Source of the DNA: Thermodesulfovibrionales bacterium
GTDB taxonomy: Bacteria > Nitrospirota > Thermodesulfovibrionia > Thermodesulfovibrionales > JdFR-86
NCBI GenBank assembly: GCA_030682405.1
Contig: JAUXOF010000057.1
Coordinates: 1-51,536, forward strand
Reading direction: 5' to 3'
Length of the DNA: 51,536 nucleotides
The position numbers were made by a program, and so were the translations under genes. The notes below the pieces were generated by a model. That model worked only from the letters and a program-made list of their open reading frames with translations. It had not been told where the DNA came from and ran no database searches. Shown one piece after another: positions 1 through 36,162 of the stretch (position 1 is its first letter; every line of letters starts with the position of its first letter).

Positions 1-2
1 GA

Positions 3-221
3 CCTCCTTTTGATTTGGTTTCAGTGAATCATTTTAATCGGGGGTCGCTTCCTACTTCAACAACTTACAGGGACATCATCACTGAGAAAAGAGCCTTGGT
101 CATTGAACACGCTAAATTAGAAGGTTGCTGGGCTAATAATGAGATAAAAGAGGATTTAGAAAAGAAATTACATGAAGTTGGTAATAAAATAGAGAAAATG
201 AAAGACCCACTAAAGAAGTAG
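3..221 (+). CDS. Hypothetical protein, probably 5'-truncated by window edge
   Basis: The reading frame is open from the first bases of the window to a TAG at 219-221. A TTG at 15 is the first possible start inside the window, but it has no convincing ribosome binding site, so the gene probably begins upstream. The visible part is hydrophilic, with a lysine/glutamate-rich helical C-terminal half likely to form a short coiled coil. No family recognised. Confidence 0.45.
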   Translation, partial: PPFDLVSVNHFNRGSLPTSTTYRDIITEKRALVIEHAKLEGCWANNEIKEDLEKKLHEVGNKIEKMKDPLKK

Positions 222-280
222 CGCTACCTGAAAGTGACCTAAGCATTTCCGATGCACACCTGAAAGGAGGTGATTACAAA

Positions 281-415
281 ATGTCAACAATAATACAATA
301 CACATGTTATTCCTGTCATAGAATATGGATGTTAGACAGTTACGCCACTTCCAACCAGTGTCCTTATTGTGGTTCGGGTAACACCACTTATAAGGTAATT
401 GACAATAATTTGTAA
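281..415 (+). CDS. Small zinc-ribbon protein (44 aa)
   Basis: A short ORF starts at ATG 281 behind a strong ribosome binding site (AAAGGAGGTGA, 263-273) and ends at TAA 413-415. The 44-residue product carries CYSC (residues 9-12) and CPYC (residues 27-30), a four-cysteine zinc-ribbon arrangement with a 14-residue spacer. Such rubredoxin-like or rubrerythrin-like knuckles often occur in small metal-binding proteins. No precise function can be given. It follows the preceding ORF after 59 bp and may share its transcript. Confidence 0.6.
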   Translation: MSTIIQYTCYSCHRIWMLDSYATSNQCPYCGSGNTTYKVIDNNL

Positions 416-914
416 GGCGTATGCGCGTACAGCATCCCTGTGACCTTCCCTGCCGTGTCTGTGGCAGTAGCCTACTGTCCTGAATATGACGGGTGATGCA
501 AGGGGATCAAAGGGCGGTGTATCCTTTCAAGTTGAGATCAATCAATAACCTTAAGGAGGCCTCATCTCAGGGAGGCCAAGGGCTTCGAGAGCAAAGTCCT
601 CCCGTTGTTTAAGAGGAGGAAAGGATGGCCGCCTGACGCGGTGACCCTCACTCAGAATTTTACCCCGTATTATCTGGCGAGAACAAAAAATGGGGTCAGG
701 TCTTGAAATATCAGTTTATTATCCATAGGCTTTCTCTACCTTGCTATGAAATCTTTTTCATCCCACTGAAACGGCACAGCAAAAGTGTTTGAATATGCAA
801 GAAGTCCGAGAAGGGCTATGAGGATAAGGTGAAAGGGGGTTTTGTTCAAAAACCTTGAGGCCATGTAATATTTTAGCACTTATATTCTGATAATGCGTTC
901 CAAATCCTTCCGCC
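416..914. other. Intergenic stretch without a supported gene
   Basis: About 500 bp with no ORF that has both a start and a ribosome binding site. It holds short inverted repeats such as GGCCTCATCTCAGGGAGGCC near 558. A segment at about 688-710 resembles sequence often found near IS200/REP-associated transposases, but no transposase is present. I see no tRNA or recognisable riboswitch. Confidence 0.5.
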
Positions 915-935
915 GGGGTTCGCAACCCCTTTTTT
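915..935 (+). terminator. Rho-independent terminator
   Basis: GGGGTT-CGC-AACCCC is a perfect 6-bp stem with a 3-nt loop, followed by six T. It lies between the small upstream ORFs and mobA, so it would end upstream transcription. Confidence 0.7.
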
Positions 936-970
936 CTTGTAATATAACGGTTTTTTTAATAAACTAATGC

Positions 971-1543
971 ATGATTGCTGCTATCATCTCTGGCGGGGAG
1001 AACAGGAGGATGCCTGTCATAAAGGGGTTCATCGAGATAAACGGGAAAAAAATCATAGAATCCCAGCTTGAACTCCTTAGTGGACTCTTTGACAGGGTTG
1101 TCATAAGCTCAAATGCGCCTGAGCTTTACTTCAGCTTAGGAGTGCCGGTGATAGGCGATGTCCTGAGCCAAAGAGGGCCTCTGACAGGCATCCTCTCCGT
1201 GCTTTTAAGCACTGGGGAAGAAGAGGTCTTTTGCGTTGCATGTGATATGCCGTTTATCAGCCCTGAGCTTATAGGGCATATTACCCGGGAAAAAGGCGGG
1301 GATGCCACAGTCCCTGTATTTTGCGGCAGGCCGGAGCCGCTTTTATCCGTATATTCAAAAGGTATAATAGAAGCCGGCCTAAGACGGCTGGCCGAGGGGA
1401 AGGCAAGCCTCACAGGAATTTTGGATGAGATTGACGTGCGCTACATAAAAGAAGACGATGTCAGGGCAATAGACCCTGACGGCAGGTCCTTTAGGAACAT
1501 CAACACGCCGGAGGACCTGAACCTGCTAAACCGGAAAAACTAA
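971..1543 (+). CDS. mobA: Molybdenum cofactor guanylyltransferase
   Basis: MobA transfers GMP from GTP to molybdopterin, giving the MGD cofactor of DMSO-reductase-type enzymes in the cytoplasm. The 190-residue length matches the family. The N-terminal nucleotide-binding loop ISGGENRRM (residues 6-14) followed by K18 corresponds to the family pattern GGxSRRMGxxK, with Ser replaced by Asn and Gly by Pro. The metal-binding Asp is in ACDMPF (D92). The C-terminal NINTPEDL is typical of MobA. It is the first gene of a co-directional cluster with tatA and alr. A Mo-enzyme substrate of the Tat pathway would fit the pairing with tatA, but that is inference. Confidence 0.88.
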   Translation: MIAAIISGGENRRMPVIKGFIEINGKKIIESQLELLSGLFDRVVISSNAPELYFSLGVPVIGDVLSQRGPLTGILSVLLSTGEEEVFCVACDMPFISPELIGHITREKGGDATVPVFCGRPEPLLSVYSKGIIEAGLRRLAEGKASLTGILDEIDVRYIKEDDVRAIDPDGRSFRNINTPEDLNLLNRKN

Positions 1544-1561
1544 GCTCAGGAGGAGGATTTC

Positions 1562-1783
1562 ATGTTTGGATTAGGGGCGCAGGAACTGATTATCATATTG
1601 ATAATCGTTTTTCTTATCTTTGGGGCATCGAGGCTGCCGGAGTTGGGCAAGGGCATAGGCCAGGCGATAAGGAACTTCAAAAAATCCGTATCCGAGCCTG
1701 ACGAGATAGACGTCACACCGAAAAAGGGCGTAGAAAAGGAAGAGAAAAAAGAGAAAGAGAAAGAAAAAGACAAGAGTGAATAG
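1562..1783 (+). CDS. tatA: Sec-independent translocase subunit TatA/E
   Basis: TatA oligomers form the protein-conducting element of the twin-arginine export system in the inner membrane. The 73-residue protein starts with the canonical [21 protein letters not shown] transmembrane segment, in which the Glu in QEL is a conserved family residue. It continues with the amphipathic helix [19 protein letters not shown] and ends in a highly charged Lys/Glu tail. The ribosome binding site AGGAGG lies just upstream. The stop overlaps the GTG start of alr, which suggests translational coupling. Confidence 0.92.
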
Positions 1784-2861
1784 GGGCGCTCAGGCAGAGA
1801 TAGACCTTGCCGCTCTATCATCCAATCTCAGCAAGGCAAAAAAGATAACCGGAGGCCTGCCGGTAATAGCGGTCGTTAAGGCAGACGCCTACGGACACGG
1901 CGCTGTAGAGGTATCCCGGAGGCTTCTGAAGGAAGGCATCCGCAGCCTTGCAGTGGCTTTTATAGAGGAGGCCGCAGAACTCAGGGAGGCCGGCATCAAT
2001 GCCCCCATCCTCGTGCTTTTTGACAGGTCTGACATCGGAACCTGCTTTGACCTCAACCTTACCCCGGTTGTGCATGACATTAAATCCGCAAAGGCGTTCT
2101 CAAAGGAGGCAAGGAAAAGAGGCTGTGTCATTGACGTCCATATAAAGGCGGATACAGGCATGGGCCGCATGGGGTTCGGCTCTATAGAGGAGATTACGGA
2201 TGCGGCGGAACTTCCGAACCTCAGGATTGCAGGGCTCATGAGCCACTTCTCGGAATCCGACCCCTCTGAAACAGAGTACGCAAACCTCCAGTTAAAAAAG
2301 TTCCTTGAGATAAAAACCGCACTTTCGGATAGGGGCTTTAAAAAACCCCTTTGCCACATGGCAAACAGCGCCTCCATGCTGAATTTCAAGGATTCGCATC
2401 TTGATGCCGTAAGGCCCGGGCTTTTTCTTTACCTTGGGGCACACTCAGGGGGCGCAACCCCGGTCATGAGGGTCAGCACAACAGTTCTTGCCTTAAGGAA
2501 ACTGAAAAAGGGCTGCCCGGTAAGCTACGGGAGGACGTTTATCACCACGCGCGCGACCATTGCCGCGGTGCTGCCTGTAGGCTATGCCGACGGGTACATG
2601 AGGACGCTTTCAAATAAATCCTGTGTTATCCTCAAGGGCAGGCGCGCGCCTGTCATAGGCAGGGTGTGCATGGACCTTACGATGGTTGATGTCACGGACA
2701 TAAAGGGAGTCAAAGAAGGCCAGAGGGTTACGCTCATAGGCTCCGAAGGCGGCGAGACGATAACAGCCGGGGAACTCGGCGGATGGGCGTCCACCATCCC
2801 CTATGAAATATTGACCTCGCTTGGGAGCAGGTCTAAGAGGGTTTATACCGGCAGGGCATAA
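1776..2861 (+). CDS. alr: Alanine racemase
   Basis: A PLP-dependent enzyme that converts L-alanine to D-alanine for peptidoglycan. The cofactor lysine is K35 in [11 protein letters not shown]. The C-terminal domain has the GYADGY motif (catalytic tyrosine region) and [12 protein letters not shown]. At 361 residues it has the usual family length. The GTG start at 1776 overlaps the end of tatA by 8 bp and is chosen because the conserved N-terminal strand (AEIDLAAL) begins straight after it. Confidence 0.95.
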
Positions 2862-3634
2862 TGGTTAAATTCATAGGATATATAGGCAGGCTGTCCATAA
2901 ATTTCACAACCGAGACCGGCAATATATTCCTCCTTTTATGCGCGACCCTCAAGCAGATGGCAGTGCCTCCTTACGAGATACGGAACACGTTTAAGCAGAT
3001 GCTTGAGATAGGTGTAAAGTCCGTGCCCGTGGTTCTGATAACCGCCATATTCACGGGCATGGTGCTTGCGCTTCAGACATACACCGGGTTTAAGAGGTTC
3101 GGGGCCGAGTCCCTTGTGGGCACAGTGGTCGCCCTTTCCATGGTGCGGGAGATGGGCCCGGTGCTTACCGGCCTGATAGTCGCCGGCAGGGCCGGGGCCG
3201 CAATTGCAGCCGAATTGGGCACGATGAGGGTCACCGAGCAGATAGATGCGCTCGAGACCCTTGCCACTAATCCGGTAAAGTATCTCATAGTGCCGAGGTT
3301 CATATCGGGCATCATAATGCTGCCGGCCCTTACAATCCTTGCGGACATAATAGGAATCATCGGCGGGTATCTGATAACCGTGGGAATATTCGGCGTAAGC
3401 TCCACAAGCTACTGGAGAAGGACATGGGACTTTCTTGAGACCGAAGACATCTATAACGGGCTCATAAAGGCGTGCTTCTTCGGCGCAAGCATCACCCTTA
3501 TAAGCTGCTACAAGGGCTTCTACACGTCAGGCGGCGCCGAAGGCGTGGGCAAGGCGACCACTGGAGCGGTTGTGCTTTCGTTCATGACGGTGCTGGTGTC
3601 AAACTATTTTCTTGCTTCGTGGTTGTACAGATGA
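2861..3634 (+). CDS. mlaE: MlaE family ABC transporter permease
   Basis: Inner-membrane permease of the Mla phospholipid transport system, which moves lipids between inner and outer membranes. The 257-residue protein has several hydrophobic segments and the typical MlaE stretch with ALxMVREMGPVLTGLIVAGR in the middle, followed by GTMRVTEQIDAL. Its ATG shares one base with the alr stop. Its own stop overlaps the mlaF start (ATGA). mlaF and mlaD follow directly, which supports the assignment. Confidence 0.93.
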   Translation: MVKFIGYIGRLSINFTTETGNIFLLLCATLKQMAVPPYEIRNTFKQMLEIGVKSVPVVLITAIFTGMVLALQTYTGFKRFGAESLVGTVVALSMVREMGPVLTGLIVAGRAGAAIAAELGTMRVTEQIDALETLATNPVKYLIVPRFISGIIMLPALTILADIIGIIGGYLITVGIFGVSSTSYWRRTWDFLETEDIYNGLIKACFFGASITLISCYKGFYTSGGAEGVGKATTGAVVLSFMTVLVSNYFLASWLYR

Positions 3635-4389
3635 TAGAGATTAAGGAACTTTATAAGTCATTCGGAACCAAGCAGGTGCTTAGGGGACTTAGCCTTAAAG
3701 TGGAAAAAGGCGAAAGCATGGTCGTGATAGGAGGCAGCGGCTCGGGCAAGAGCGTCCTTATAAAGCATATAATAGGCATCCTTAAGCCCGATAAGGGAGA
3801 CATATTTGTGGACGGGGTGAATGTGGTAGGACTCAGGGAGAACGCGCTTTATGAACTGAGGAAAAAATTCGGCATGCTCTTTCAGGGAGCGGCCCTCTTC
3901 GATTCCATGACAGTATGGGAGAACGTAGGGTTTGCCCTTCTCGGAAATAAAGCCTACGGCGAGAAAAAGGTGAAGGAGATAGCCGTAGAGCAGCTTAGGC
4001 TCGTGGGACTTGTCGGCGTGGAGGACCTTATGCCCTCCGAGCTTTCCGGCGGAATGAAAAAAAGGGTCGGGCTTGCAAGGGCCATCGCGCACGGCCCTGA
4101 AATAATCCTTTACGACGAGCCGACTACCGGCCTTGACCCCATAATGGCCGATGCCATAAACGACCTGATTATAGAGATGCAGAAAAAACTGAACGTCTCA
4201 TCTGTTACAATTACGCACGACATGATGAGCGCTTATAAGATAGCCGACAGGATAGCGATGCTCTATGACGGGAAGATTCTGGAGACCGGCACGCCGGATG
4301 AAATCAGGCATTCTGAAAATCCCTTTGTAAGGCAGTTCATAACCGGAAGCGCCGCCGGTCCGATACAGCTTGAAGGGGTTGCCCGATGA
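3631..4389 (+). CDS. mlaF: MlaF-like ABC transporter ATP-binding protein
   Basis: Cytoplasmic ATPase partner of MlaE. Walker A is GGSGSGKS (residues 34-41), the signature is LSGGMKKRVGLARA, Walker B is ILYDEPTTGLDP and the switch histidine is in ITHD. The ATG at 3631 is preferred over an upstream in-frame start because it overlaps the mlaE stop as ATGA and gives the normal length (252 aa) with the standard N-terminus MIEIKELYKSFG. Confidence 0.94.
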   Translation: MIEIKELYKSFGTKQVLRGLSLKVEKGESMVVIGGSGSGKSVLIKHIIGILKPDKGDIFVDGVNVVGLRENALYELRKKFGMLFQGAALFDSMTVWENVGFALLGNKAYGEKKVKEIAVEQLRLVGLVGVEDLMPSELSGGMKKRVGLARAIAHGPEIILYDEPTTGLDPIMADAINDLIIEMQKKLNVSSVTITHDMMSAYKIADRIAMLYDGKILETGTPDEIRHSENPFVRQFITGSAAGPIQLEGVAR

Positions 4390-5882
4390 AACGCATACAG
4401 ACCGAAATCGGAGTCGGGATTTTTGTGATAATCGTATTTGCCGTGCTGGCCTTCATGACCTTCAAGGTTGCGGACATCCAATGGGGAAAGAAAGAGGGCT
4501 ATAGAGTACACGCATATTTCAAGAACCTATCCGGCCTTGACAAGAAGACCAAGCTAAAGGTCGCGGGCGTGGACGCCGGCGTCATAGAGAATATTGAACT
4601 CATAGACGGCAGGGCGCGGCTTACCCTGAGGATATATCCTTCGGTCAAGCTCTACTCCGACGCCGAGGCATCTATAAGGGCAAGCGGCCTTCTGGGAGAC
4701 AAATACCTGCATATACAAACCGGAGAAAAGTCCCCTCTTCTTAATGACGGAGATACCATAGAAAACATCCGTGAGGTCGTTGACATAGACGACCTCATAG
4801 CCACCTTTTCAACGGTTTCCGAGAATATCAACAAGCTCTTAACACAGGTCACCAATGTTGTCGAGGACGATGAAGTCAAAAACGACATAAAAGAGACCGT
4901 AAAGAACCTCAGGGACCTGACAGCAGACCTCAAGGAAACCGTCGGGGACAACAAGGAGAAGTTCACTTCCGTCATCAACAGGGTAGATTCACTCGTCGCC
5001 TCGCTTGATGACCTGATAAAAGCAACGGAGAAGCCGCTAACGAACACCGTGACAAACCTCGGCGAATTCACGCAGACGCTGAAGACCGACGGCCCGGAAC
5101 TCGTGGGAAACCTGAACAAGGCAATGGAAAATCTCAAGGAAATGCTCGAGGAAAACAGGCCGGCTATGAAGTCCATAGCAGACAGGGCCGAGACCGCAAT
5201 GGGATCCATAAGCAACATAACCGGACAGATAGAGCGGGGAGAAGGCACCATAGGGAAGCTCTTGAAGGACGAACGCCTGTACGCCTCCCTCAGCAATGCG
5301 GTGGAGGGGGTGGACAAAACCCTGTCTGCTGTCACAAGATTCAGGACATTCCTCACCTTTCAGGGAGAATACCTCTTCGGAGAGAAGGACGGTAAAGGGT
5401 ATTTTTATGTAACCCTCCAGCCCAGGAAGGACAAGTACTACATCCTCGGCATCAACAGCGACCCACTGGGCAACATGGAAATTACCGAGACCACGACAAA
5501 CGGGGTCATATCAAGGGAAGAAAAGAGAGAGGCTAAGCTTGAGTTAACGGCCCAGATAGTAAAAAGGTTCGGCAACTCCGCCCTCAGGATAGGCATTACT
5601 GAAAACACATTCGGCCTCGGCGCCGACTATTTCCTGCTTAACGACAAAGTGAAGTTTTCGGTTGACGCATGGGACTTCTCAGAAGACGAGTATCAGGCAG
5701 AAAACCCCCATGTAAAGGCCGGAGCCGACTATTTCGTGTTCAAGCACATATTCATCTCAGGCGGGGTGAATAATATTTTCAACAAAAAACAGCGCGCTGT
5801 TTATGCCGGGGCAGGAATCAAGTTCGAGGACGAGGACTTCAAATATCTCTTTGGAAGCATGCCTAAAATACCAGGCCAGTAG
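4386..5882 (+). CDS. mlaD: MlaD-like MCE domain protein
   Basis: Periplasmic lipid-binding subunit of the Mla transporter, anchored by one N-terminal transmembrane helix (about residues 9-28). The MCE domain follows (about 37-115), with the characteristic FKNLSGLDKKTKLKVAGVDAG segment. A long helical, probably coiled-coil region covers roughly residues 130-320. The C-terminal third (about 330-498) is rich in alternating aromatic/charged strands and resembles a small beta-barrel-like or outer-membrane-associated domain. At 498 residues it is longer than E. coli MlaD. Longer versions are common outside the enterobacteria. The start overlaps mlaF by 4 bp. Confidence 0.9.
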   Translation: MKRIQTEIGVGIFVIIVFAVLAFMTFKVADIQWGKKEGYRVHAYFKNLSGLDKKTKLKVAGVDAGVIENIELIDGRARLTLRIYPSVKLYSDAEASIRASGLLGDKYLHIQTGEKSPLLNDGDTIENIREVVDIDDLIATFSTVSENINKLLTQVTNVVEDDEVKNDIKETVKNLRDLTADLKETVGDNKEKFTSVINRVDSLVASLDDLIKATEKPLTNTVTNLGEFTQTLKTDGPELVGNLNKAMENLKEMLEENRPAMKSIADRAETAMGSISNITGQIERGEGTIGKLLKDERLYASLSNAVEGVDKTLSAVTRFRTFLTFQGEYLFGEKDGKGYFYVTLQPRKDKYYILGINSDPLGNMEITETTTNGVISREEKREAKLELTAQIVKRFGNSALRIGITENTFGLGADYFLLNDKVKFSVDAWDFSEDEYQAENPHVKAGADYFVFKHIFISGGVNNIFNKKQRAVYAGAGIKFEDEDFKYLFGSMPKIPGQ

Positions 5883-5937
5883 GGGGCACAGCCCCTGCGG
5901 TACCGGCAAAGCCGCTACATTAGTGTTGCACTATACC

Positions 5938-7200
5938 CTACGGCGGGTCAACACTCAAGAAATCTAAATGCCTGCCCCGGCCTTTGCCCTCTGATGCCCT
6001 TGCAAACCAGATTCCGTCTGAGCCGGAGCCGTTGTAATAGACCCTTCTTGTCATATTGCCGTTTGCATCGTAGGTGAGGGTGGAATAGTTGTAAACCACA
6101 TCGTTCGAGGTGAACCATACACCGTCCGAGCCGGAGCCGTTATAAGAAACATATCTTGTCATATTGCCGTTTGCATCGTAGGTGTAGGTGTCATAGCTGT
6201 AAACCACATCGTCCGAGGTGAACCATACACCGTCCGCACCGGAGCCTTTATAATAGACCCATCTTGTCCTTTTGCCGTTTGCATCGTAGGTGTAGGTGTC
6301 ATAGCTGTAAACCACATCGTCCGAGGTAAACCATACACCGTCCGCGCCGGAGCCGGTATAATAGACCCATCTTGTCATATTGCCGTTTGCATCGTAGGTG
6401 TAGGTGTCATAGCTGTAAACCGCATCGTCCAAGGTAAACCATACACCGTCCGCGCCGGAGCCGGTATACAAAACATCTCTTGTCATCTTGCGGTTTGCAT
6501 TGTAGTTAGGGGTGGAATAGCTGTAAACCATGTCGTCGGTTGCCGTTACCATTACCATTACCGTTACGGTATCCGCCGCACTGTCCAGCGTGCCGTCGTT
6601 GACCACAAGGCTTGCCACATATGAGCCGTCCTTATCAGCAGTAAAGGTCGGCTTGGCAACTGTTGTGGAAGATAGGACTGCCGTGCTCCCTGAAGGCATA
6701 GATGTTATAGACCACTTATAAGTCAGCGTATCCCCGTTGGCATCGCTGCTTCCGCTTCCGTCAAGGGTTACAACCGAGCCGGTTGCTACATTCTGGTCAA
6801 GCCCTGCATTGGCAACAGGGGCGCTGTTTGGAGCCGCCGCCGTTGCCATTACTGTTACGGTATCAGCCGCGCTGTCCACCTTGCCGTCGTTGACCACAAG
6901 GATTGCCGCATATGAGCCGTCCATATCAGCCGTAAAGGTCGGCTTGGCAGCTGTTGAAGATGATAGGACTGCCGTGCTTCCTGAAGGCGTGAATGTAATC
7001 GTCCACTTATAGGTCAGCGCGTTCCCATCCGCATCACTGCTTCCGCTTCCGTCAAGCGTTACAACCGAGCCGGTTGCTACATTCTGGTCAGGCCCTGCAT
7101 TGGCAACAGGGGCGCTGTTTAAGAAGTCTCCACATCCGGCCATAATGAACGCCATCAGAATTAATGATAAAAATACCGGAAACTTATTTGCCTTAAACAT
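5938..7200 (-). CDS. Lipoprotein with two PKD domains and five 36-residue YD-like repeats
   Basis: Reverse-strand gene for a 420-residue cell-surface lipoprotein. The N-terminus has a signal peptide ending in a lipobox (IMAGC). Two near-identical PKD/Ig-like domains of about 95 residues follow (PVANAGPDQNVATGSVVTLD and a second copy). The C-terminal half is five copies of a 36-residue unit with the core YTYDANGNMTR..Y.GSGADGVWF, similar to RHS/YD repeats. The last 20 residues (EGKGRGRHLDFLS) do not fit the repeat and may come from read-through into non-native sequence. Function unknown; a surface adhesive or structural role is an inference from the domains. Confidence 0.8.
   Translation of the reverse strand: MFKANKFPVFLSLILMAFIMAGCGDFLNSAPVANAGPDQNVATGSVVTLDGSGSSDADGNALTYKWTITFTPSGSTAVLSSSTAAKPTFTADMDGSYAAILVVNDGKVDSAADTVTVMATAAAPNSAPVANAGLDQNVATGSVVTLDGSGSSDANGDTLTYKWSITSMPSGSTAVLSSTTVAKPTFTADKDGSYVASLVVNDGTLDSAADTVTVMVMVTATDDMVYSYSTPNYNANRKMTRDVLYTGSGADGVWFTLDDAVYSYDTYTYDANGNMTRWVYYTGSGADGVWFTSDDVVYSYDTYTYDANGKRTRWVYYKGSGADGVWFTSDDVVYSYDTYTYDANGNMTRYVSYNGSGSDGVWFTSNDVVYNYSTLTYDANGNMTRRVYYNGSGSDGIWFARASEGKGRGRHLDFLSVDPP
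6000..6530 (-). repeat. Five tandem 108-bp repeats inside the lipoprotein gene
   Basis: The marker GC(C/G)GTTTGCAT recurs at 6058, 6166, 6274, 6382 and 6490, exactly every 108 bp. Each unit encodes 36 residues. The central units differ by only a few bases, so the array is young or kept uniform by recombination. Copy number is likely to vary between strains. Confidence 0.9.
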
Positions 7201-7397
7201 GGGTATGCCTCCCCAATTGAAAGTTGAAAGCTTTAGTATATTACCCCCTATATTACCCCCCCTTCCCCCCCGCTTTCAAGCTAAATTGCGGAGGGGGAGA
7301 ACAAAATCGCTTGCAAAACCTGCCGTGCCTGATAAAATTCCATGAAAGGGCGGGGTTCGGTAAGAGGCAAATGAACCGGATGAAAAGGGGGTTTATC

Positions 7398-9020
7398 ATG
7401 TGCAGAAAGTTTTCACTGTTTGTTATGCTTGCTTTGGGAATTGCGTTTCTTTTCGGGCTTGGCACTGCCGGAGCCGCAAACAAGGCTCAGGGAATTAACG
7501 CCAATAAGTGCTACGCCTGCCATGAGAACATCAGGGATTTCCATTCAAACGGAAAGCACGCAAGGGTGGACTGCTCACGGTGCCATGAAGAAACCAACGC
7601 CCATCTGAAGGATGCCTCGGTTAAGCCTGTTACAAAGATGGAGCACGAGGTATGCGGAGGGTGCCATAAGGATGAGTACATGTCGCTTGTCTCCATGAAC
7701 CTTGAGTCAAAGGCAAAGGTGGAGAAGTCGGCATTCAAAGGCCGTTCCCCTCTCTTTGACAAGCTCATTATGCCTCACGGGTTCTCAAAGGAGCATGACG
7801 AGCCGAGAAGCCATGTATTCATGCTCGTTGACCACCTGATAGTGGATAGGGGATACGGGGGAAGGTTCAGCCTCAAGGACTGGAAAAAGATAACAGACGC
7901 AAAGGCTGCCGAGAAAGATGCATGGAGCATTCTTACGGACAAGGAACCCTCCACAGGCAACCAGAATAAATTCATACCGCAGTCGGCGACAGCGGCAAAT
8001 CCCGTCTGCTTTCAGTGCAAGACGCAGGACCAGATACTCAAGTGGAAGTACATGGGAGACCCGGACCCGGCGGCAAAATGGGACAGGACCTCCAATGTAG
8101 TAGAACTGGCCCGCAACCTTAAGCATCCCCTAAACTGTTTTACCTGCCACGACCCGCATTCAGCCGGGCCGCGCGTCGTCCGGGACGCCCTCATAGAGGC
8201 AGTGGTTGACAAAGGCGGCGGCACATACCCGTATGATATGGAAAAGAGCAAAAAAACCACCATGACAAAGATAACATTCAGGGACTTCAGGGCCATCGGG
8301 ATCCTGAGCAGGCCGGATTCCAACATCCTGTGCGCCCAGTGCCACGTGGAGTATAACTGCAACCCCGGCCTTGACCCCAAGACAGGCGACAAAATCGGCA
8401 TGAACGACAGGAGGTCCAACTTCTTCCCGTGGACGAATGTCTTTGACCTGAAAAAGAAATATCAGGAGGCCGGGTTTAAGGACTTCAGGCATGAGGTCAC
8501 AGGAGCGGCCCTGACAAAAATCCAGCACCCTGAGGCAGAGACCTTCTGGGGGAGCAAACACGAACGGGCAGGGGTTGAATGCAAGGACTGCCATATGCCC
8601 AAGGTCAAGGGCAGGTCAGGCAAAATCTTCACATGGCACGGCCAGAAAAGCGCAAGGTACATGAAAAAGACGACCTGCCTCAGGTGCCATTCCCTCTGGA
8701 GCGAACAGGAAGCCGAATACCAGATGGATGCGATTCAGAATTACATCAGGGGCAAGATTACAAAGGCGGAATTCTGGCTCGGCCTGCTCATAGACAAATA
8801 CTACGAGGCAAAAACATCGGGCGTTCCTGAGGAGACACTCAGGCAGGCAAGGAACTTCCACGACACGGCCCATACGCTCTGGGAGTGGTGGACTGCGGAG
8901 AACTCCGACGGGTTCCATAACCCCGAGGCGGCAAGGGAATCACTTGCGCAATCCATCACAGCCTCGCAGGATGGGATAAAACTTCTTGATAAGGCATTGG
9001 CTGATATGAAAGGAAAATAA
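7398..9020 (+). CDS. Octaheme cytochrome c nitrite reductase (NrfA-related)
   Basis: Periplasmic multiheme enzyme of the octaheme nitrite reductase type, which reduces nitrite to ammonium. An N-terminal signal peptide (residues 1-26) is followed by eight heme motifs: CYACH (38), CSRCH (59), CGGCH (86), the lysine-ligated CFQCK (204), CFTCH (247), CAQCH (312), CKDCH (395) and CLRCH (427). The CxxCK as the fourth motif, after three extra N-terminal hemes, is diagnostic of the octaheme family as opposed to pentaheme NrfA. HVEYNC (residues 316-321) has Tyr and Cys two apart, as in the Tyr-Cys crosslinked Thioalkalivibrio enzyme. H377 in QHPEAE matches the NrfA active-site histidine. ATG 7398 is chosen because AAAGGGGG precedes it and the signal peptide starts there; it gives 540 aa. 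Confidence 0.9.
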   Translation: MCRKFSLFVMLALGIAFLFGLGTAGAANKAQGINANKCYACHENIRDFHSNGKHARVDCSRCHEETNAHLKDASVKPVTKMEHEVCGGCHKDEYMSLVSMNLESKAKVEKSAFKGRSPLFDKLIMPHGFSKEHDEPRSHVFMLVDHLIVDRGYGGRFSLKDWKKITDAKAAEKDAWSILTDKEPSTGNQNKFIPQSATAANPVCFQCKTQDQILKWKYMGDPDPAAKWDRTSNVVELARNLKHPLNCFTCHDPHSAGPRVVRDALIEAVVDKGGGTYPYDMEKSKKTTMTKITFRDFRAIGILSRPDSNILCAQCHVEYNCNPGLDPKTGDKIGMNDRRSNFFPWTNVFDLKKKYQEAGFKDFRHEVTGAALTKIQHPEAETFWGSKHERAGVECKDCHMPKVKGRSGKIFTWHGQKSARYMKKTTCLRCHSLWSEQEAEYQMDAIQNYIRGKITKAEFWLGLLIDKYYEAKTSGVPEETLRQARNFHDTAHTLWEWWTAENSDGFHNPEAARESLAQSITASQDGIKLLDKALADMKGK

Positions 9021-9058
9021 GCGGAAAGGATGTAGTCAGTCTGTAGTCATTTTGGCCG

Positions 9059-9100
9059 AAAAAAAGGGTTTGCGGAATCACCCGCAAACCCTTGATTTTT
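9059..9100. terminator. Bidirectional rho-independent terminator
   Basis: A 12-bp perfect stem (AAGGGTTTGCGG / CCGCAAACCCTT, 9064-9075 and 9082-9093) has a 6-nt loop. It is flanked by a run of A on the left and GATTTTT on the right, so it can terminate both the nitrite reductase transcript (+) and the tRNA cluster (-). Confidence 0.85.
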
Positions 9101-9105
9101 CAAAG

Positions 9106-9178
<73 letters not shown>

Positions 9179-9247: not shown

Positions 9248-9323
9248 TGGCGCGCCTGAGAGGATTCGAACCTCCGACCCTCGGCTCCGGAGGCCGATGC
9301 TCTATCCACTGAGCTACAGGCGC
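9248..9323 (-). tRNA. tRNA-Arg (anticodon CCG)
   Basis: The reverse complement has a perfect 7-bp acceptor stem GCGCCTG/CAGGCGC. The anticodon loop CTCCGGA has anticodon CCG, the T-loop is TTCGAAT, and CCA is encoded (9248-9250). Confidence 0.97.
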
Positions 9324-9359
9324 TGGAATTACAACCTCGTTTCCGAGTCATTTTTATGG

Positions 9360-9433
9360 GGTGGGCGAGGGGATTTGAACCCCCAACCCCTGGAGCCACA
9401 GTCCAGTGCTCTGACCGTTGAGCTACGCCCACC
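9360..9433 (-). tRNA. tRNA-His (anticodon GTG)
   Basis: The reverse complement has acceptor stem GTGGGCG/CGCCCAC, anticodon GTG in loop CTGTGGC, and the extra 5' G (position -1, base 9433) pairing with the discriminator C73, as required for histidyl-tRNA synthetase. Confidence 0.96.
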
Positions 9434-9508: not shown

Positions 9509-9550
9509 CGCGCCTGACAGGACTCGAACCTGTGGCCTACTGCTTAGAAG
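9509..9550 (-). other. 3' half of tRNA-Arg(TCT), prophage attachment site (attL)
   Basis: The reverse complement reads as the 3' half of a tRNA from the anticodon loop CTTCTAA onward: anticodon TCT, right anticodon arm GCAGT, T-arm with TTCGAGT, and right acceptor strand CAGGCGC. The 5' half is missing: bases beyond 9550 do not pair with the anticodon arm or acceptor strand. The integrase gene starts to be read about 100 bp away. This is the pattern left when a tyrosine integrase inserts a phage into a tRNA anticodon loop. The phage would supply a replacement 3' half at its other end, outside this window. Confidence 0.8.
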
Positions 9551-9657
9551 GTATCTAACTTTTTCCGAGACCTTTTGTTTTAGCCACTTTGAAGGCTTTT
9601 AAAAAGGCTGCTGTGGTCAGTGGGTTACCTCTCAGGCATCGCCGTAAAGACATTATA

Positions 9658-10677
9658 TCATGCCTTCCGGTTGTTTCTCTTTTCTTTTAACCGCTCGATG
9701 TATTCATGCGTCTGGGTCATGCCGAGCCGTTTTCTGTGCGTTGATATCTGGGTGTATATCGTAGTCGAGGAGATGCTCTTGTGGCCGAGCAGCTCTTGCA
9801 CGAGCCTCAGGTTATCCGTGGCCTCGAGGGCGTATGTCCCGAAGGCGTGCCTAAGCTTGTGCGGGCTAAACCGATGAATCCCCGCTCGCTTACAGGCGCT
9901 CCTAAAGAGGGTCTTCAGGCTTTTTACCGGCTTCCCTGTCCGCTTGCTCTCAAAGACATACCCGCTTTCCTGCCTGAGAGGCTGAAGGAGGCGTTTGACG
10001 TCCTCTGGCAGTATGCAGATGCGGGGCACATCGCCCTTCGTCTCGGTGAGGTTCACCGTGTCGCTGTCCCATTCTATTTTTTCCCATCGGATGTTCCGGG
10101 CATCCTCGAACCTCAGGCCGGCCTGATACATCAGAAGGACGAGGGCCTTCTTGAGCGGGTCGTTTATCTCCGCGATAAACTTCTCGATATCGGCAGGGTG
10201 TGGCACCTGCGGAAGCGGAGCCTTGTATCTTAGGTGCTGAATCTTAAACGGCAGCGGGTTTGCGTAGTTATGCTCGACCATCCATCTGATAATCGCTCTC
10301 ATGTAGTTCAATTCCTTGATGCACGCCCTCGGAGTCCCCGCCCTCGCCTTCTGGTATTGGGTGATGATGGTCGGCATAATCCGAGAGACGGGCAGCTTCC
10401 CGAAATGCGGGACGAGGAACTTTAGGGCGCTTTTATAGTCCGTTATTGTTTTTGGCGCCCTGTGGAGCGTCATCCAGTCTTTATATTCCGGCAGGACATC
10501 CATTATCTTCGGGTTTGTGGGGTTCGGAAGCCCTGCGTTATTCCGCCTAAGTTCAAGCTCCAACGCCCTTGCCTCGCCCTCAGGCCCCTCGTAGACCGTG
10601 CGGATGCGCTTGCCCTTCCGGCCCTGAGGGTAATAGTCCATGATATATTTCCCTTTATCGAGCTTTCGGACCGACAT
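9658..10677 (-). CDS. int: Phage tyrosine integrase
   Basis: Site-specific recombinase, 339 residues from the ATG at 10677 (further in-frame starts exist to 10776 but run over the next gene). It has an N-terminal arm-binding-like domain (about 1-60), a core-binding domain (about 60-150) and a catalytic domain with R189 (AGLRFED), K214 (TETKGD), H273/R276 (HKLRH), H299 (LLGHKS) and the nucleophile Y308 (TIYTQ). It lies next to the broken tRNA-Arg, which it presumably targets. Confidence 0.93.
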   Translation of the reverse strand: MSVRKLDKGKYIMDYYPQGRKGKRIRTVYEGPEGEARALELELRRNNAGLPNPTNPKIMDVLPEYKDWMTLHRAPKTITDYKSALKFLVPHFGKLPVSRIMPTIITQYQKARAGTPRACIKELNYMRAIIRWMVEHNYANPLPFKIQHLRYKAPLPQVPHPADIEKFIAEINDPLKKALVLLMYQAGLRFEDARNIRWEKIEWDSDTVNLTETKGDVPRICILPEDVKRLLQPLRQESGYVFESKRTGKPVKSLKTLFRSACKRAGIHRFSPHKLRHAFGTYALEATDNLRLVQELLGHKSISSTTIYTQISTHRKRLGMTQTHEYIERLKEKRNNRKA

Positions 10678-11095
10678 GTTCCATCCAGTCGAATTTCCCG
10701 ACGCCCTGATAGCCCTGTCCCTCAAGCCACGAGCGCATGGTCTTATTGACCGATGTCCCGTTTGTGAGCGAGACATCGCAGAGAAGTCGTCCGTATTTAT
10801 CCCTGCCCCCGGTCCGCACCCTCACCTTTTTATAGGCAACAAGGTCTATCAGCTTTCGTTTAGCCTTTTTGCCTGCGGGCTTTTCCTTGCCGTGAAGCTC
10901 AGGTGCGTTATAGTGGAGCATCCGGCAGGTCTCCTCGATGCGGATGTTGCGTACGCGCTGTTCGATTTTGATTGTGTCCCCGTCCGTGACCCAGTAGACG
11001 CGGGCGTTGAACTCCCCGTGCGCGGGGCTGTTCGCCACCTCCGCAAAGGCGGGGGTGAGAAGGACGAAAAGAAGGATGAGAGCCGAGGCTTTTAT
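10655..11095 (-). CDS. Secreted thermonuclease-like (SNase) protein, start codon probably mutated to ATA
   Basis: The core is a staphylococcal-nuclease-like OB domain: WVTDGDTIKI, then YNAPELHGKEKP, then GGRDKYGRLLCDV. The frame continues upstream of the first ordinary start (GTG 11038) through a classic signal peptide (KASALILLFVLLTPAFA). The only codon in the right place after the GAGGAG ribosome binding site is ATA at 11095, directly overlapping the stop of the upstream gene. A single G-to-A change from an ATGA overlap would explain it. Whether it is translated is uncertain; a GTG 11038 start would remove the signal peptide. It overlaps the integrase start by 23 bp. Confidence 0.72.
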   Translation of the reverse strand: MKASALILLFVLLTPAFAEVANSPAHGEFNARVYWVTDGDTIKIEQRVRNIRIEETCRMLHYNAPELHGKEKPAGKKAKRKLIDLVAYKKVRVRTGGRDKYGRLLCDVSLTNGTSVNKTMRSWLEGQGYQGVGKFDWMEHVGPKAR

Positions 11096-12348: not shown

Positions 12349-12951
12349 TTAGTGTTCTTTCACCCGCACGCTCTTGATGACCTTGCCGATAATCCGGTAG
12401 TGTTTGTTCGGTTTGAACGTCGGATACTCCGGGTTGTCGCTTTCGAGGAGTGGCTTGCCGTCCTTGACCCTGAACCTTTTGACCATCGCCTCCCCGTATT
12501 CGTTGGCCACGATTACGATGTCGCCGTTTTTCACGTCCTTCGTGGGCAGGAACAGGGCATAGTCCCCGTCCCGGATTTCCGGCATCATGCTGTCGCCCTT
12601 GATGATGACCGAGAATGTGCCTTTAGGGACAGTAGGAAGGCTCAGGTGCTCTATTATGTCTTCGTCGGGCGTATCCTTCGGGAAGCCCGCCGGCACGCGA
12701 GCGAGGACAGGCACGGAGACTGCGGGCTTTACGCCGAGCGGGAGATAGAACGCATCAGCAGTAACATCAAGCACATTACAGAATTTGGGTAAGAGGTTTT
12801 TCCCGATGCCCCTTTTCCCTTTTATTATTGAATTTATATAAGGGGGCTGAATTCCAAGCATTACGGCCAGTTTATTCTGAGATATCCCCCGTTCGTTTAG
12901 AAGTCTTTGAAGGTTCTGGCCTACGATGTTACTCACCTCCTTTTTCGTCAT
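12349..12951 (-). CDS. CI/LexA-like phage repressor (HTH plus S24 peptidase)
   Basis: Lysogeny repressor. The N-terminal HTH (about residues 10-60, with ISQNKLAVMLGI) is followed by an autocleavage domain. The Ala-Gly cleavage site is A88-G89 (VPAGFPK), the nucleophile is S121 (GDSMMP) and the general base is K158 (AMVKRF), so RecA-triggered self-cleavage is expected. ATG 12951 gives 200 aa; a TTG start at 12969 is also possible. An AAGGAGGTG sequence lies just inside the coding region, which leaves the exact start open. It is transcribed away from the early genes, as expected for a CI-type switch. Confidence 0.88.
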   Translation of the reverse strand: MTKKEVSNIVGQNLQRLLNERGISQNKLAVMLGIQPPYINSIIKGKRGIGKNLLPKFCNVLDVTADAFYLPLGVKPAVSVPVLARVPAGFPKDTPDEDIIEHLSLPTVPKGTFSVIIKGDSMMPEIRDGDYALFLPTKDVKNGDIVIVANEYGEAMVKRFRVKDGKPLLESDNPEYPTFKPNKHYRIIGKVIKSVRVKEH

Positions 12952-13069
12952 GGCATCACAATAAAACAAATGAAGCGTTTTGCCTATTTCCCTAAAAGAG
13001 CAATCATTTAAATATTAATAAACCTTATAAGGCAATTAGAAAGAAAAATACTCTTAATGCTTTTTTTAC

Positions 13070-19437: not shown

Positions 19438-22400
19438 TTGACTAACGATTTCGAGAGGGTGAAAGAGGCGTTGCCGGAGCTGAGGCTCATCATCGAGCGT
19501 GAGACCGGGCTTAAGATGAAGGGGCCGCACCTCGAGGCCTGCCCGTTCTGCGGCCACAAGGACTGTTTTTCTATTCATGAGCAGGGCTATAAGTGCTTCT
19601 CCTGCGACGCCCACGGCGACGCCTTCACATTCATCGAGACATACCGCAAGGTGGACAAGGCCGAGGCCCTGAAGGTCTGCGCGGAGGTGGCGGGGATTGA
19701 GCTGGCGCCTCGCAAGGACATGCCCGAAAGGCAGGAGAGCCTTCAGGAGCGGATTTACCGCCTCGCCTCGGTCTACTACCATGAGCGAATGCTCGCCAGC
19801 GACATCGGTAGGGAATGGTTCATCAAACAGCGCGGTCACTCCCTTGACACCCTCAAGAAGCTCCGGGCGGGATGGGCGGACGGGGGACTTCTCGCTCATT
19901 TCAAGGAGCAGGGCATCGAAGCCGCGGACGTCCTCAAGTACGGCCTTGCCAATGAAAAAGGCAATGATTATTTCTGGAAAAAAGACGTGGCTGTTTTCCC
20001 TGTGCTCGACCATGCCGGCACGGTAATTTCTTTCACGGCCAAAGACCCGATAAAGGAGATGAAAAATACTCAGCTAAAAGGTCAGAAAAAGAAATGGTTC
20101 CTCAATTATAAGGCTCTCGGCAAGTATCAGGAGCTGTTCGTCGTGGAGGGGGAAAACGACGTGGCAAGCCTCTTTGACGTCGGGCATGAGAACGTCGTGG
20201 GCACAGCGGGGGCTCCGGGAGCCGAGCAGCCCACGCTCATAAAAAACTTCTGCTCTGGCCAGACGGTTTATTTGTGGTTCGACAGGGACAAGCAGAAAAA
20301 GCCCTTTGACCCTGAGCATCTTAACGGGGACGGAGGGCCGCACCACATCCGTTTTATTCTTCGGCATCTTGGCGAAAGCAACGTCACGGCGAAGGTCATC
20401 ACGCATCCGGGAGAGGCAAAGGACCCTGACGAGTTCATTCAGGGACTCCTGAGGGGCGGCATGACGCCTCAGGCCGTGCGCCAGAAGCTGAAGGAGCTTA
20501 AAGGAGAGGCCCTGACGCCGCTTGAATGGGAGATAGAGGAGCTTAAGGCCATACCGGAGACGAAAGACCGGCTCTCGGCGTTTAAGGCCCGGAAACTGCA
20601 CGTGGCGATACAGGCGGTCACGTCCACCGCCGACCAAGAGGTTTACACTGACCTTGCGGCCAAGGCTATAGGAGTGAGCGTAAAGGCCGTTGAGGAGCTT
20701 ATATCAAGCGCTGTTGACCTTTATGGAAACTTGCTTGAAATCTACAGAGACGAAGGCGGGCTAAAAAAAGCAGAGCCTTACAGCCTCGCAAAACACATTT
20801 ACGGCTGGTTCACAAACGGGGCGAGCGCAAAGTTCTTTAAAACGCCGGACAAGAAGTGCTGGCTTTTCTACCAAAGAAAAAACGTCCAAATCGGGAATAA
20901 CTTAGACTTCAACACCCTGATGCTCAGGCTCACACCGCCGCTAAACGCCATTGAGAAGCCCGGCTCCACCGTCTGGTACTACCTTGAGCACCTTTGCAAT
21001 CTGCACGGCGAGCCGGTGGACCTGATGAGCTGGCTATACACCGACCGCGAGAAGGACATCATCTATATAAATCTTAATTCCGGCCATAATAAAATCCTTC
21101 GCATCGCGCCCGACGAGCCGCCGCAGATGATTGACAACGGCACGAACGAACACGCCGTGCTTTTAAGCTCCTCGCCTCAAATCCGCTCGTTCGAGTATTT
21201 AAACCAGCAAGGCGAAGGCGAAGCCGAAGGCTTTCGCGCTATGAAATCGCTCCTCATGGACACCTCGCCATGCGAAGGGCCGCAAAGGTACTTCCTATTG
21301 TGCTGGACAATCTCCACGTTCCTCATGAACTATCAAACCGACCGGGGGCTGCTACAAATCATCGGGTCCTCGAGCACGGGAAAGTCGAAGGTGGCCGAGC
21401 GCATCTCACAGTTGCTTTACGGCGAGAGCTTCATCGGGAAAGGCACGGGCGCGGCTGAGACGAGAGTGGCCGTGAGCAACCCGGTCCTATTCCTCGACAA
21501 CTTAGAAAACAGAAACCTCACACAGGGCACGGTGGATTTCCTTCTGTTCGTGGCCAACAGCGCCCACAAACCGAAGGCAAAAAGCGGCTCTGACACTGAC
21601 GTTCTCTATCAGAAGCTTAATACGATGGGGGTCATCACCTCTATCGAGGAGTTCCCGGGCCGGCTGCCGGAACTAATCAACAGGACATTCCCTCTCATTT
21701 TGGAAACTCAATACAAGCAGACCGGCTACATGCATGACGAGACGATGAGGGCGATTCTGAAAAAGCGAAACGCCATGCTCTCGGCGATTTTCGGGATGCT
21801 CGCAAAGGACACCCTGCCGCGGCTGGCCGAAAGGGCCGACTGGTCTAAGTTCCTCTCGACCCGTTTTCCGGGACATAACAAGGAAAGGAACAACGAGCAT
21901 ATCTGCACGATGCTCCTAATCTTAGAGGGGCTGCTCAAGCACCTGCCGTTTCACGCCAAGGGCGGGGCCGTGCCCGTTAAGAAACAGGCCGAGGAAATCC
22001 TTGAGCACTGGATACGGTATCAGGAAGAGCATGCCCGGCAAACGGCCTTAAGCTCGAACACGCTCCTTACCCTGCTTGACGGGCTGGCCAGAGAGGTGTG
22101 CGTGAAAATCAGGGGCATCCCGAGGGAGAAGGCGCTTGAGTATCAGGACCACCCTGAGTTCAGCCCGCACCCTGAGATGAAAGAGGAGGTAAGGGTTAAG
22201 GTCTACGACGACCCCGAGTACATGGAGAGGTTCTTCCTCTCTGAGCCGAAGGACGAGGTAAGCGAGGACGAGGACGAGTTCAGCGAGAGCATCCAGAGGT
22301 TTGAGTTCATAGCGACGGCCGCCGAGCTGCACACCCTCCTGAACCGCTACTGCGCGGCCCAGCACACACGGAACCCATATGAAAACCCTAACGCCTTGGG

Positions 22401-22542
22401 CGCGAGGATGTCGAACGACAGGGATGTCCTTGAAAAGGGAGGCTGGAGCTTTATCAATAGAAAAGACGGCCAGGCATTCTATAAAAAAGTAGGGGGACAC
22501 CGGTACTGGCGGCTCTCAAAGAAGATGAGGGCGGGACGATGA
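19438..22542 (+). CDS. Primase-helicase fusion protein
   Basis: 1034-residue replication protein with TTG start behind ATAAGGAG. The N-terminal CHC2-type zinc-binding primase domain has CPFC (35-38) and CFSC (53-56). A TOPRIM catalytic domain follows (about 230-330) with E238 in FVVEGENDVAS and the acidic DRD at 282-284. The C-terminal half is a P-loop ATPase with Walker A GSSSTGKS at about 641-649 and a Walker B-like VLFLDNLENRN at about 684-690. This is a compact phage priming and unwinding machine. No separate DNA polymerase or MuA/MuB is present in the window, so host replication enzymes are probably recruited. Confidence 0.85.
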   Translation: MTNDFERVKEALPELRLIIERETGLKMKGPHLEACPFCGHKDCFSIHEQGYKCFSCDAHGDAFTFIETYRKVDKAEALKVCAEVAGIELAPRKDMPERQESLQERIYRLASVYYHERMLASDIGREWFIKQRGHSLDTLKKLRAGWADGGLLAHFKEQGIEAADVLKYGLANEKGNDYFWKKDVAVFPVLDHAGTVISFTAKDPIKEMKNTQLKGQKKKWFLNYKALGKYQELFVVEGENDVASLFDVGHENVVGTAGAPGAEQPTLIKNFCSGQTVYLWFDRDKQKKPFDPEHLNGDGGPHHIRFILRHLGESNVTAKVITHPGEAKDPDEFIQGLLRGGMTPQAVRQKLKELKGEALTPLEWEIEELKAIPETKDRLSAFKARKLHVAIQAVTSTADQEVYTDLAAKAIGVSVKAVEELISSAVDLYGNLLEIYRDEGGLKKAEPYSLAKHIYGWFTNGASAKFFKTPDKKCWLFYQRKNVQIGNNLDFNTLMLRLTPPLNAIEKPGSTVWYYLEHLCNLHGEPVDLMSWLYTDREKDIIYINLNSGHNKILRIAPDEPPQMIDNGTNEHAVLLSSSPQIRSFEYLNQQGEGEAEGFRAMKSLLMDTSPCEGPQRYFLLCWTISTFLMNYQTDRGLLQIIGSSSTGKSKVAERISQLLYGESFIGKGTGAAETRVAVSNPVLFLDNLENRNLTQGTVDFLLFVANSAHKPKAKSGSDTDVLYQKLNTMGVITSIEEFPGRLPELINRTFPLILETQYKQTGYMHDETMRAILKKRNAMLSAIFGMLAKDTLPRLAERADWSKFLSTRFPGHNKERNNEHICTMLLILEGLLKHLPFHAKGGAVPVKKQAEEILEHWIRYQEEHARQTALSSNTLLTLLDGLAREVCVKIRGIPREKALEYQDHPEFSPHPEMKEEVRVKVYDDPEYMERFFLSEPKDEVSEDEDEFSESIQRFEFIATAAELHTLLNRYCAAQHTRNPYENPNALGARMSNDRDVLEKGGWSFINRKDGQAFYKKVGGHRYWRLSKKMRAGR

Positions 22543-23352: not shown

Positions 23353-24291
23353 GTGGGGGGGCCGGGGGGAGTGCTGACCACAGGGCATATGTGTTGCGGC
23401 GCCGGGGGTGATGTCCTCGGCGCGTCCCTCGCCGGCGCGAAACCTCTTTGGGCGTTCGACCTTAATTTTGCCGCCTTCAAAACCGCGTGGGCCAATTTTC
23501 CGGGCATCCCTTTTCAGGCAGATATCAGGGGTTTCTCTCCGCCGTGTTATGTAGATGTTGTTGTCTGCGGCATCCCTTGCCAGCCGTTCACGCGACTCGG
23601 CAAGCGCATGAAGGAAAACGACGAGCGCGACATCTCGGTCGCCGTCGCGTCAGCGGTCAGAAAAGTAAATCCTGCGTGGATTATTTTCGAAAATGTGACC
23701 GAGTATCGAAAAAGCCAAGGCTTTCAAATTCTCAATTCAGAGTTGTCCGCATATAAAATCAACTGGCAAATTCTCAATTTCGCCGATTACGGCATCCCGA
23801 CGACCCGCCGCAGGCTGATAGGCATTGCAAGCAAAGACACCCTGTTAGAATTTCCAGAACCAACGCACACATCGGCTCACGGGCTTTTTGACCAAAAGGC
23901 CCCGTGGGAAAAGTTCAAACACATAAGGAATGGTGACGGCATGAAGCCGGTCTCCTCAAACATTCTGAAGGGAAAATTCAATCGGTCTCGCAGATACGCC
24001 GAAAAAGGGTATGGATTTTCAATGCAGCTTATAGATGACGAGGATGTTATGCCGACGATACTTGGTGTCTTCTGTAATGGGAGTGGTTCAAAGAGCAATG
24101 CGGTTTTCATATATGACAAAGGCGCTTTACGGCATATTTCTTTCAAGGAGGCATACAGGGCTCAAGGGTTTCCCGATGAGTATATTTTCCTCGGCACCGT
24201 GGCGCAAAAATGGCAAATGGTGGCCAACGCTCTCCCCCCGGCAATGGCGCGCGTTCTAATCCAGCATATATCGAGGTCGTCCTCATGTTGA
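23353..24291 (+). CDS. C5 cytosine-specific DNA methyltransferase
   Basis: Transfers methyl groups to cytosine C5, probably protecting phage DNA from restriction. Motif I CCGAGGDVLGA (14-24), catalytic PCQ (75-77) in CGIPCQPF, motif VI ENV (113-115), motif VIII-type YGIPTTRRR (about 146-154), motif IX/X with ISFKEAYRAQGFP and QMVANALPPAMA. The whole set in 312 residues suggests an intact enzyme. Start uncertain: GTG 23353, GTG 23371 or ATG 23389. No partner endonuclease is adjacent, so it is an orphan methyltransferase. Confidence 0.9.
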   Translation: MGGPGGVLTTGHMCCGAGGDVLGASLAGAKPLWAFDLNFAAFKTAWANFPGIPFQADIRGFSPPCYVDVVVCGIPCQPFTRLGKRMKENDERDISVAVASAVRKVNPAWIIFENVTEYRKSQGFQILNSELSAYKINWQILNFADYGIPTTRRRLIGIASKDTLLEFPEPTHTSAHGLFDQKAPWEKFKHIRNGDGMKPVSSNILKGKFNRSRRYAEKGYGFSMQLIDDEDVMPTILGVFCNGSGSKSNAVFIYDKGALRHISFKEAYRAQGFPDEYIFLGTVAQKWQMVANALPPAMARVLIQHISRSSSC

Positions 24292-31262: not shown

Positions 31263-31372
31263 AAAATAGTTGCAGGTTTCTTAGGAAATGACACGAGAAG
31301 TCTGATATAAAAGCCCAAAGGCCTTAATGAGGCCGGAGGGCTTTTATATTGGCGGATGAAGAGAAAAAGACA
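31263..31372 (+). promoter_or_regulatory. Late promoter and hairpin leader, copy 1 (packaging operon)
   Basis: The conserved upstream block starting AAAATAGTTGCAGG includes the dyad TTTC-TTAG-GAAA. It is followed by an extended -10 (TGATATAAA) without a -35 box, as expected for an activator-dependent promoter. Downstream, ATATAAAAGCCC pairs with GGGCTTTTATAT around an inner stem GGCCT-taatg-AGGCC. The right arm contains the GGAGGG ribosome binding site of the TTG start at 31349. The first eight codons are shared with copy 3 at 50605. Confidence 0.7.
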
Positions 31373-36103: not shown

Positions 36104-36150
36104 AAAATAGTTGCAGGTTTCTTAGGAAATGAAAAGGCTTTTCTGATATG
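36104..36150 (+). promoter_or_regulatory. Late promoter, copy 2 (head operon), hairpin leader absent
   Basis: Repeats the AAAATAGTTGCAGG block and the TTTC-TTAG-GAAA dyad, with TGATATGAA as extended -10, but diverges after it and lacks the leader hairpin. It lies directly after the portal stop and before the protease gene. Confidence 0.6.
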
Positions 36151-36162
36151 AATGGAGGAGCG

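Follow-up and report, generated by a model that had tools for sequence, protein, structure and literature searches.

A 3' half of a tRNA-Arg(TCT) gene beside a phage-type integrase gene raises the question of what became of the tRNA gene. The window analysed here (51,536 nucleotides) is the entire contig C17 of a Thermodesulfovibrionales genome of 2.03 Mb in 87 contigs, so that the far end of the prophage was invisible to the initial annotation, which had predicted that the tRNA would be restored there. In the reading that we consider very probable, the host's single tRNA-Arg(TCT) gene is interrupted in its anticodon loop by a temperate, ~46.6-kb phage with a contractile tail, and the tRNA is rebuilt at the far end of the prophage, on a second contig, C80. 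The features around the insertion in the window are as follows:

9105 to 9178, minus strand: tRNA-Lys(CTT) of the host cluster (ARAGORN/Rfam)
9248 to 9323, minus strand: tRNA-Arg(CCG) of the host cluster (ARAGORN/Rfam)
9357 to 9432, minus strand: tRNA-His(GTG) of the host cluster (ARAGORN/Rfam)
9509 to 9551, minus strand: displaced tRNA-Arg(TCT) 3' half, which begins in the anticodon loop and ends at the discriminator base (agrees with the complete C80 tRNA at 40 of 46 bases)
9534 to 9551, minus strand: 18-bp att common core covering the anticodon loop (identical in the rebuilt tRNA, C80 4207–4224)
9552 to 9657, no strand: phage-side att flank from the core to the integrase stop codon, with an octamer one mismatch from TGACTACA at 9612–9619
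9658 to 10776, minus strand: tyrosine integrase whose stop codon is on the side of the tRNA fragment (PF00589, 1.3e-28; phrog_1 integrase, 2.8e-52)

The fragment covers tRNA positions of about 31–74, bearing out the earlier description of a 3' half, from anticodon loop to acceptor, next to an integrase gene, whose stop codon is 107 bp away. On the same strand it is followed by tRNA-His, tRNA-Arg(CCG) and tRNA-Lys(CTT), being located 5' of all three. The interval originally cited (9509–9657) holds the tRNA fragment in its first 43 bases; the remainder (9552–9657) is spacer on the phage side of the att site, extending to the integrase stop codon, and the octamer at 9612–9619 within it would be an arm site. 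ARAGORN and Rfam call only the Lys, Arg(CCG) and His genes in the window, where a complete tRNA-Arg(TCT) is absent. A search with a 32-base piece of the fragment found its own site alone (shuffle expectation, 0.00); this result and the 40-of-46 match to C80 show that the fragment did not arise by chance. A stretch near 9640, whose complement by eye slightly resembles a tRNA 5' end, was dropped, as it contains no 5' half at up to three mismatches. Left of the tRNA cluster, the host side (1–9020) includes MlaE and MlaD transport genes and genes for a PKD-domain protein and a multihaem cytochrome c552-like protein, with tandem 108-base repeats (6005–6544) in the gene region of the PKD-domain protein.

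Elsewhere in the genome, the fragment region has a single match, which is a complete tRNA-Arg(TCT) at C80:4176–4250. This tRNA scores 71.0 bits on the tRNA model and folds into a cloverleaf. Host genes lie on its 5' side (Ppx/GppA, two 2-oxoacid oxidoreductase subunits and a GNAT acetyltransferase), and on its 3' side are phage genes pointing toward the tRNA, which encode a tail-fibre-like protein, baseplate wedge proteins and baseplate hub proteins. A search for a complete tRNA-Arg(TCT) at the other end of the prophage, as had been proposed, is thus answered on C80. At up to three mismatches, the only 5' half of tRNA-Arg(TCT) in the genome is the one on C80, and no second tRNA-Arg(TCT) is found among the loci of the genome's 41 tRNA matches. 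The 18-bp core begins at tRNA position 31–32 or thereabouts, which places the site in the anticodon-loop (A) class of att sites; the crossover would have occurred within the core, in its anticodon-loop part. In 30 GNAT loci (the own locus and those of 29 other genomes), a tRNA is nearby only at the own locus; the upstream host neighborhood of the C80 tRNA is not conserved, which counts against the preferred reading.

The two contigs are linked by a single tail gene, phrog_184, which is split between their right ends, indicating that the contigs adjoin and tying the complete tRNA to the prophage whose restoring role had been predicted. The two matches of phrog_184 in the genome correspond to profile positions 17–213 (right end of C17) and 306–407 (right end of C80), and are oriented as expected for an end-to-end join. 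The unmatched end bases (196 + 73) amount to about 89 codons, compared with 92 missing profile positions, and we estimate that the gap is close to nil. As the contig ends have no sequence overlap, the join in this 87-contig assembly rests on one split gene and the gene order, which continues from C17 onto C80. The prophage would thereby comprise about 42.0 kb of the window and 4.6 kb of C80, with the complete tRNA and the displaced fragment pointing the same way at its two ends. In draft genomes, tRNA fragments are usable in this manner for pairing contigs and locating the far end of a prophage. The phage genes recognized in the window are:

12349 to 12969, minus strand: phage repressor of the CI/LexA-like kind (phrog_4, 7.2e-37)
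19438 to 22542, plus strand: phage DNA primase (phrog_47)
24210 to 25274, plus strand: second tyrosine recombinase in the prophage (phrog_1, 1.3e-24)
32196 to 33986, plus strand: terminase large subunit (phrog_2)
33983 to 36103, plus strand: portal/minor head protein (profile match)
38417 to 39430, plus strand: major head protein (phrog_29)
40337 to 40879, plus strand: endolysin (phrog_435)
44148 to 45578, plus strand: tail sheath protein (phrog_165)
46512 to 48293, plus strand: tape measure protein (phrog_973)
50690 to 51536, plus strand: N-terminal portion of the baseplate-hub gene, which is truncated where the contig stops (phrog_184; C-terminal part on C80)

The order on C17 is repressor, primase, terminase, portal, major head, lysin, sheath, tube, tape measure and hub-gene start, and a phage structural gene set is present between the two ends. 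The second recombinase gene adjoins a DNA methyltransferase gene and has relatives in elements of two other genomes, G204 (33%) and G164 (47%). An intergenic repeat beginning AAAATAGTTGCAGGTTTCTTAGGAAATGA occurs at 31263–31375, 36104–36161 and 50605–50716 of the window; the sequences at 31263 and 50605 agree at 98% and run into the starts of two different genes. This repeat is possibly a phage promoter or regulatory element.

Integration would have proceeded as follows. The target tRNA-Arg(TCT) gene would originally have been located directly before tRNA-His, tRNA-Arg(CCG) and tRNA-Lys, and the tyrosine integrase would insert the phage into its anticodon loop, with the phage att site bringing its own tRNA 3' half. 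The host 5' half and the phage 3' half would be joined at the end away from the integrase (C80), producing a complete tRNA behind a host-side promoter-like sequence, and the host 3' half would be left as a dead fragment beside the integrase in the window. The fragment, the complete tRNA, the 18-bp core, the phage genes on both contigs, the split gene and the restored gene order, all legible in the DNA itself, form the basis of this model.

When the host flanks are joined at the core, the order Arg(TCT)-His-Arg(CCG)-Lys is obtained, as in relatives, whose clusters comprise all or part of Pro-Arg(TCT)-His-Arg(CCG)-Lys. The tRNA-Arg(TCT) of the joined flanks is identical at 72 of 74 positions to an uninterrupted copy of a relative, the nearest of 28 distinct 74-base tRNA-Arg(TCT) sequences, a set that includes the own C80 copy. 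Comparison with genomes lacking the prophage, which the initial annotation had recommended, reveals the uninterrupted site with Arg(TCT) beside His in 17 of 29 other-genome loci (L006–L034), mostly followed by Arg(CCG) and Lys. The remaining 12 loci are without Arg(TCT) beside His within the stretch read, and in some of these genomes Arg(TCT) and His are kilobases apart or on different contigs, suggesting that the site may be a hotspot. In G031, G049, G008 and G050, the distance from tRNA-Arg(TCT) to tRNA-His is 2–6 kb, compared with the usual ~100 bases, and in G049 an extra partial match lies between the two genes. Within this order, the position has the appearance of a hotspot for insertions.

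The 3' half supplied by the phage was expected to be identical to the displaced one, which is not the case: the whole T-stem is replaced, a difference that weighs against the preferred reading. The stem is GCCCG/CGGGC in the phage half versus ACAGG/CCTGT in the displaced half, and both are fully paired. Only two of the 28 sequences have the GCCCG T-stem, i.e., the own C80 copy and the tRNA of G172, positions 1–72 of which are 100% identical to the C80 copy. The locus thus provides a clean two-ended case in which a bacterium's sole tRNA-Arg(UCU) has had its 3' half, entire T-stem included, exchanged by a prophage. A narrow and small literature search found no paper on T-stem swaps or on integrases at the fragment end, and absence from print is not claimed. 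In a related genome, G173, a second tRNA-Arg(TCT) gene breaks off after its position 39 (L129:9229–9267), with a distant tyrosine recombinase beyond; no rebuilt tRNA is present at that junction, and a complete copy is retained in the tRNA cluster.

The G172 tRNA lies outside the usual cluster, and G173 has a cluster copy in addition to its broken second copy; both would fit a situation in which the window fragment and the C80 tRNA come from different elements, with C80 carrying one end of a different prophage next to an additional tRNA-Arg(TCT) gene. The split of the phrog_184 tail gene between C17 and C80, with no second copy in the genome, and the single 5' half in the genome make such an origin very improbable. 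Slightly less probable still is tRNA-dependent lysogeny, in which the host tRNA would have been destroyed and replaced by a complete phage-encoded tRNA-Arg(TCT) on C80. Such phages exist (PMC10865867), and the foreign T-stem of the C80 tRNA, followed by phage DNA, is as this would predict. However, a separate host 5' half is then expected, whereas the sole 5' half in the genome is that of the C80 tRNA itself, and host genes and the promoter-like site lie directly 5' of that tRNA. Also, the core here is 18 bp and is followed by a pairing-competent 3' half, compared with a short core of ~10 bp in those phages (PMC10865867). We rejected this alternative because there is only one 5' half and the complete tRNA is at the junction.

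Group I introns of tRNAs sit in the anticodon loop. A self-splicing intron would therefore match the position of the break, but is extremely improbable, as no Rfam intron family matches anywhere in the window, the window contains no 5' exon (the sole 5' half being on C80), and the neighbor is an integrase followed by a phage. The two outcomes that the initial annotation had named as fatal to its proposal, i.e., lack of a reconstituted tRNA and an intron with a 5' exon nearby, are therefore both contradicted by the data, and integration with rebuilding of the tRNA on C80 is retained below.

Upstream of the rebuilt C80 tRNA, there is a promoter-like site (11/12) with TG before the second hexamer. 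On the other side of the insertion, TTATAATATTTA precedes tRNA-His both here and in G002 (by eye), which suggests that the downstream tRNA genes may have their own promoter at this sequence; a consensus promoter scan on the strand of tRNA-His found no promoter. The rebuilt tRNA is also followed by a segment that is repeated behind the host cluster in the window:

9031 to 9095, minus strand: host repeat R after tRNA-Lys, with an intrinsic terminator (9064–9093) and paired TGACTACA (9042–9049 and 9031–9038); 94% identity over 65 bases to C80 4259–4323

In the window, this segment is located between tRNA-Lys and the stop codon of a cytochrome gene, and on C80 between the rebuilt tRNA and the stop codon of the tail-fibre-like gene. 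It occurs at only these two places genome-wide; a third weak row (E 0.013) is the hairpin of the window copy on the other strand. The terminator hairpins of the two copies have stabilities of -19.8 and -21.8 kcal/mol, and none of 200 shuffles was as stable; the phage terminator occupies C80 4261–4290. Each copy has two TGACTACA 11 bases apart, which in the window are the only exact occurrences on either strand. In G204, TGACTACA occurs twice, in opposite orientations, between the integrase and the core. The paired octamers would be arm-type sites of this integrase group, and the phage-borne terminator would stop host tRNA transcription before the convergent tail genes.

Behind tRNA-Lys in G173, G009 and G001, a terminator is followed by other paired short repeats, which could be scars of elements at tRNA-Lys; no integrase was recognized beside these repeats (read by eye). 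tRNA-Lys is targeted by integrases of this group (L144, L145 and L152). In exact-pattern scans of viral contigs, the phage 3' half, the octamer pair and the terminator each had 0 matches. A bolder and distinctly tentative proposal, which we hold to be rather doubtful, is that the att end of the phage acts as a portable cassette for a tRNA. It would combine a T-arm and acceptor of foreign origin with a terminator of its own and arm sites for the integrase, and would restore the host's sole tRNA-Arg(UCU) in chimeric form, with a transcription stop private to it. The terminator and octamers behind tRNA-Lys, nearly the same in sequence, would then be the scar of a sister element that formerly used tRNA-Lys. 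The repeated segment provides a testable idea on how such phages keep tRNA transcription orderly.

The integrase is located at the end with the displaced fragment, not at that with the rebuilt tRNA. Loci of the own integrase and 29 relatives were compared (11 of the 41 listed matches had no locus). A 3' tRNA fragment lies past the integrase stop codon, on the same strand as the integrase, in 9 of the 30 loci including the own one, and in all nine the match starts at tRNA position 29–33. A complete tRNA is on the opposite strand in 13 loci, an opposite-strand tRNA is cut by the contig end in one (L155), an opposite-strand 3' half without a complete tRNA is present in two (L147 and L165), and five have no tRNA or fragment there. 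In G030, both ends are on one contig: a complete tRNA-Thr is followed, after ~10.7 kb, by the integrase and the 3' fragment. The layout is thus a recurrent variant. The target tRNAs of relatives vary (Arg, Lys, Thr, Pro, Val, Ala and Leu), indicating that the fragment-bearing loci have the anticodon-loop site, not tRNA identity, in common. On a tree of 28 of the 30 integrases (L150 and L154, shorter than 290 aa, were dropped), the placement label changes four times, versus a shuffled mean of about 7.2; integrase placement is clustered but not of single origin.

L141 has an additional 5' tRNA fragment, and L165 (G098) has a perfect 3' half of tRNA-Ala(GGC) 9 bp from the integrase, on the opposite strand and without a 5' half; this locus may represent either a phage that is not integrated or a gene that has been disrupted. 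A search with the integrase as query for related loci in genome contigs and viral contigs gave pattern matches, of which 0 were confirmed. In tblastn against named phages, all 284 records had <60% identity, with 23.5–28.9% for the ten listed.

Integration into tRNA genes prefers three sublocations, which PMC8371274 attributes to Williams 2002. Insertion in the anticodon loop had been taken to define a specific integrase class, but it is common: among 3919 islands of Islander, 3' fragments are present in 3760 and anticodon-centred sites in 2083 (PMC4383910). Like the Islander 'A' class, the present prophage has a complete tRNA at one end, a displaced 3' fragment at the other and a tyrosine integrase inside. 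Set against that class are the fragment-end integrase, the different T-stem in the phage half and the terminator-plus-octamer segment after the rebuilt tRNA.

In mycobacteriophage Boilgate (attB-4, tRNA-Lys), the phage 3' half differs from that of the host at five bases and the tRNA still folds (PMC10865867). An altered phage 3' half with folding kept is also seen here, but the Boilgate target is Lys(TTT) in Mycobacterium, and the change here is a whole compensatory T-stem. In Fionnbharth, which shows tRNA-dependent lysogeny, a single-copy tRNA is likewise disrupted by the integrase; however, Fionnbharth makes up for the loss with a separate tRNA gene of its own and leaves the broken one unrestored, whereas in the present prophage the junction restores the tRNA.

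The nearest integrase relative (37%) is in the prophage-like element of G204, from another order of the same class. Its repressor, primase, second recombinase, terminase and portal are related to those described here, and it has a 3' half of tRNA-Arg(TCT) beside the integrase, followed by tRNA-His. On the same contig, the later head and tail proteins have no matches, and the complete tRNA-Arg(TCT) of G204 is followed by tRNA-Arg(CCG) with no visible phage genes, unlike C80. Overall, the present prophage is a well-documented case of an already known strategy, resolved at both ends.
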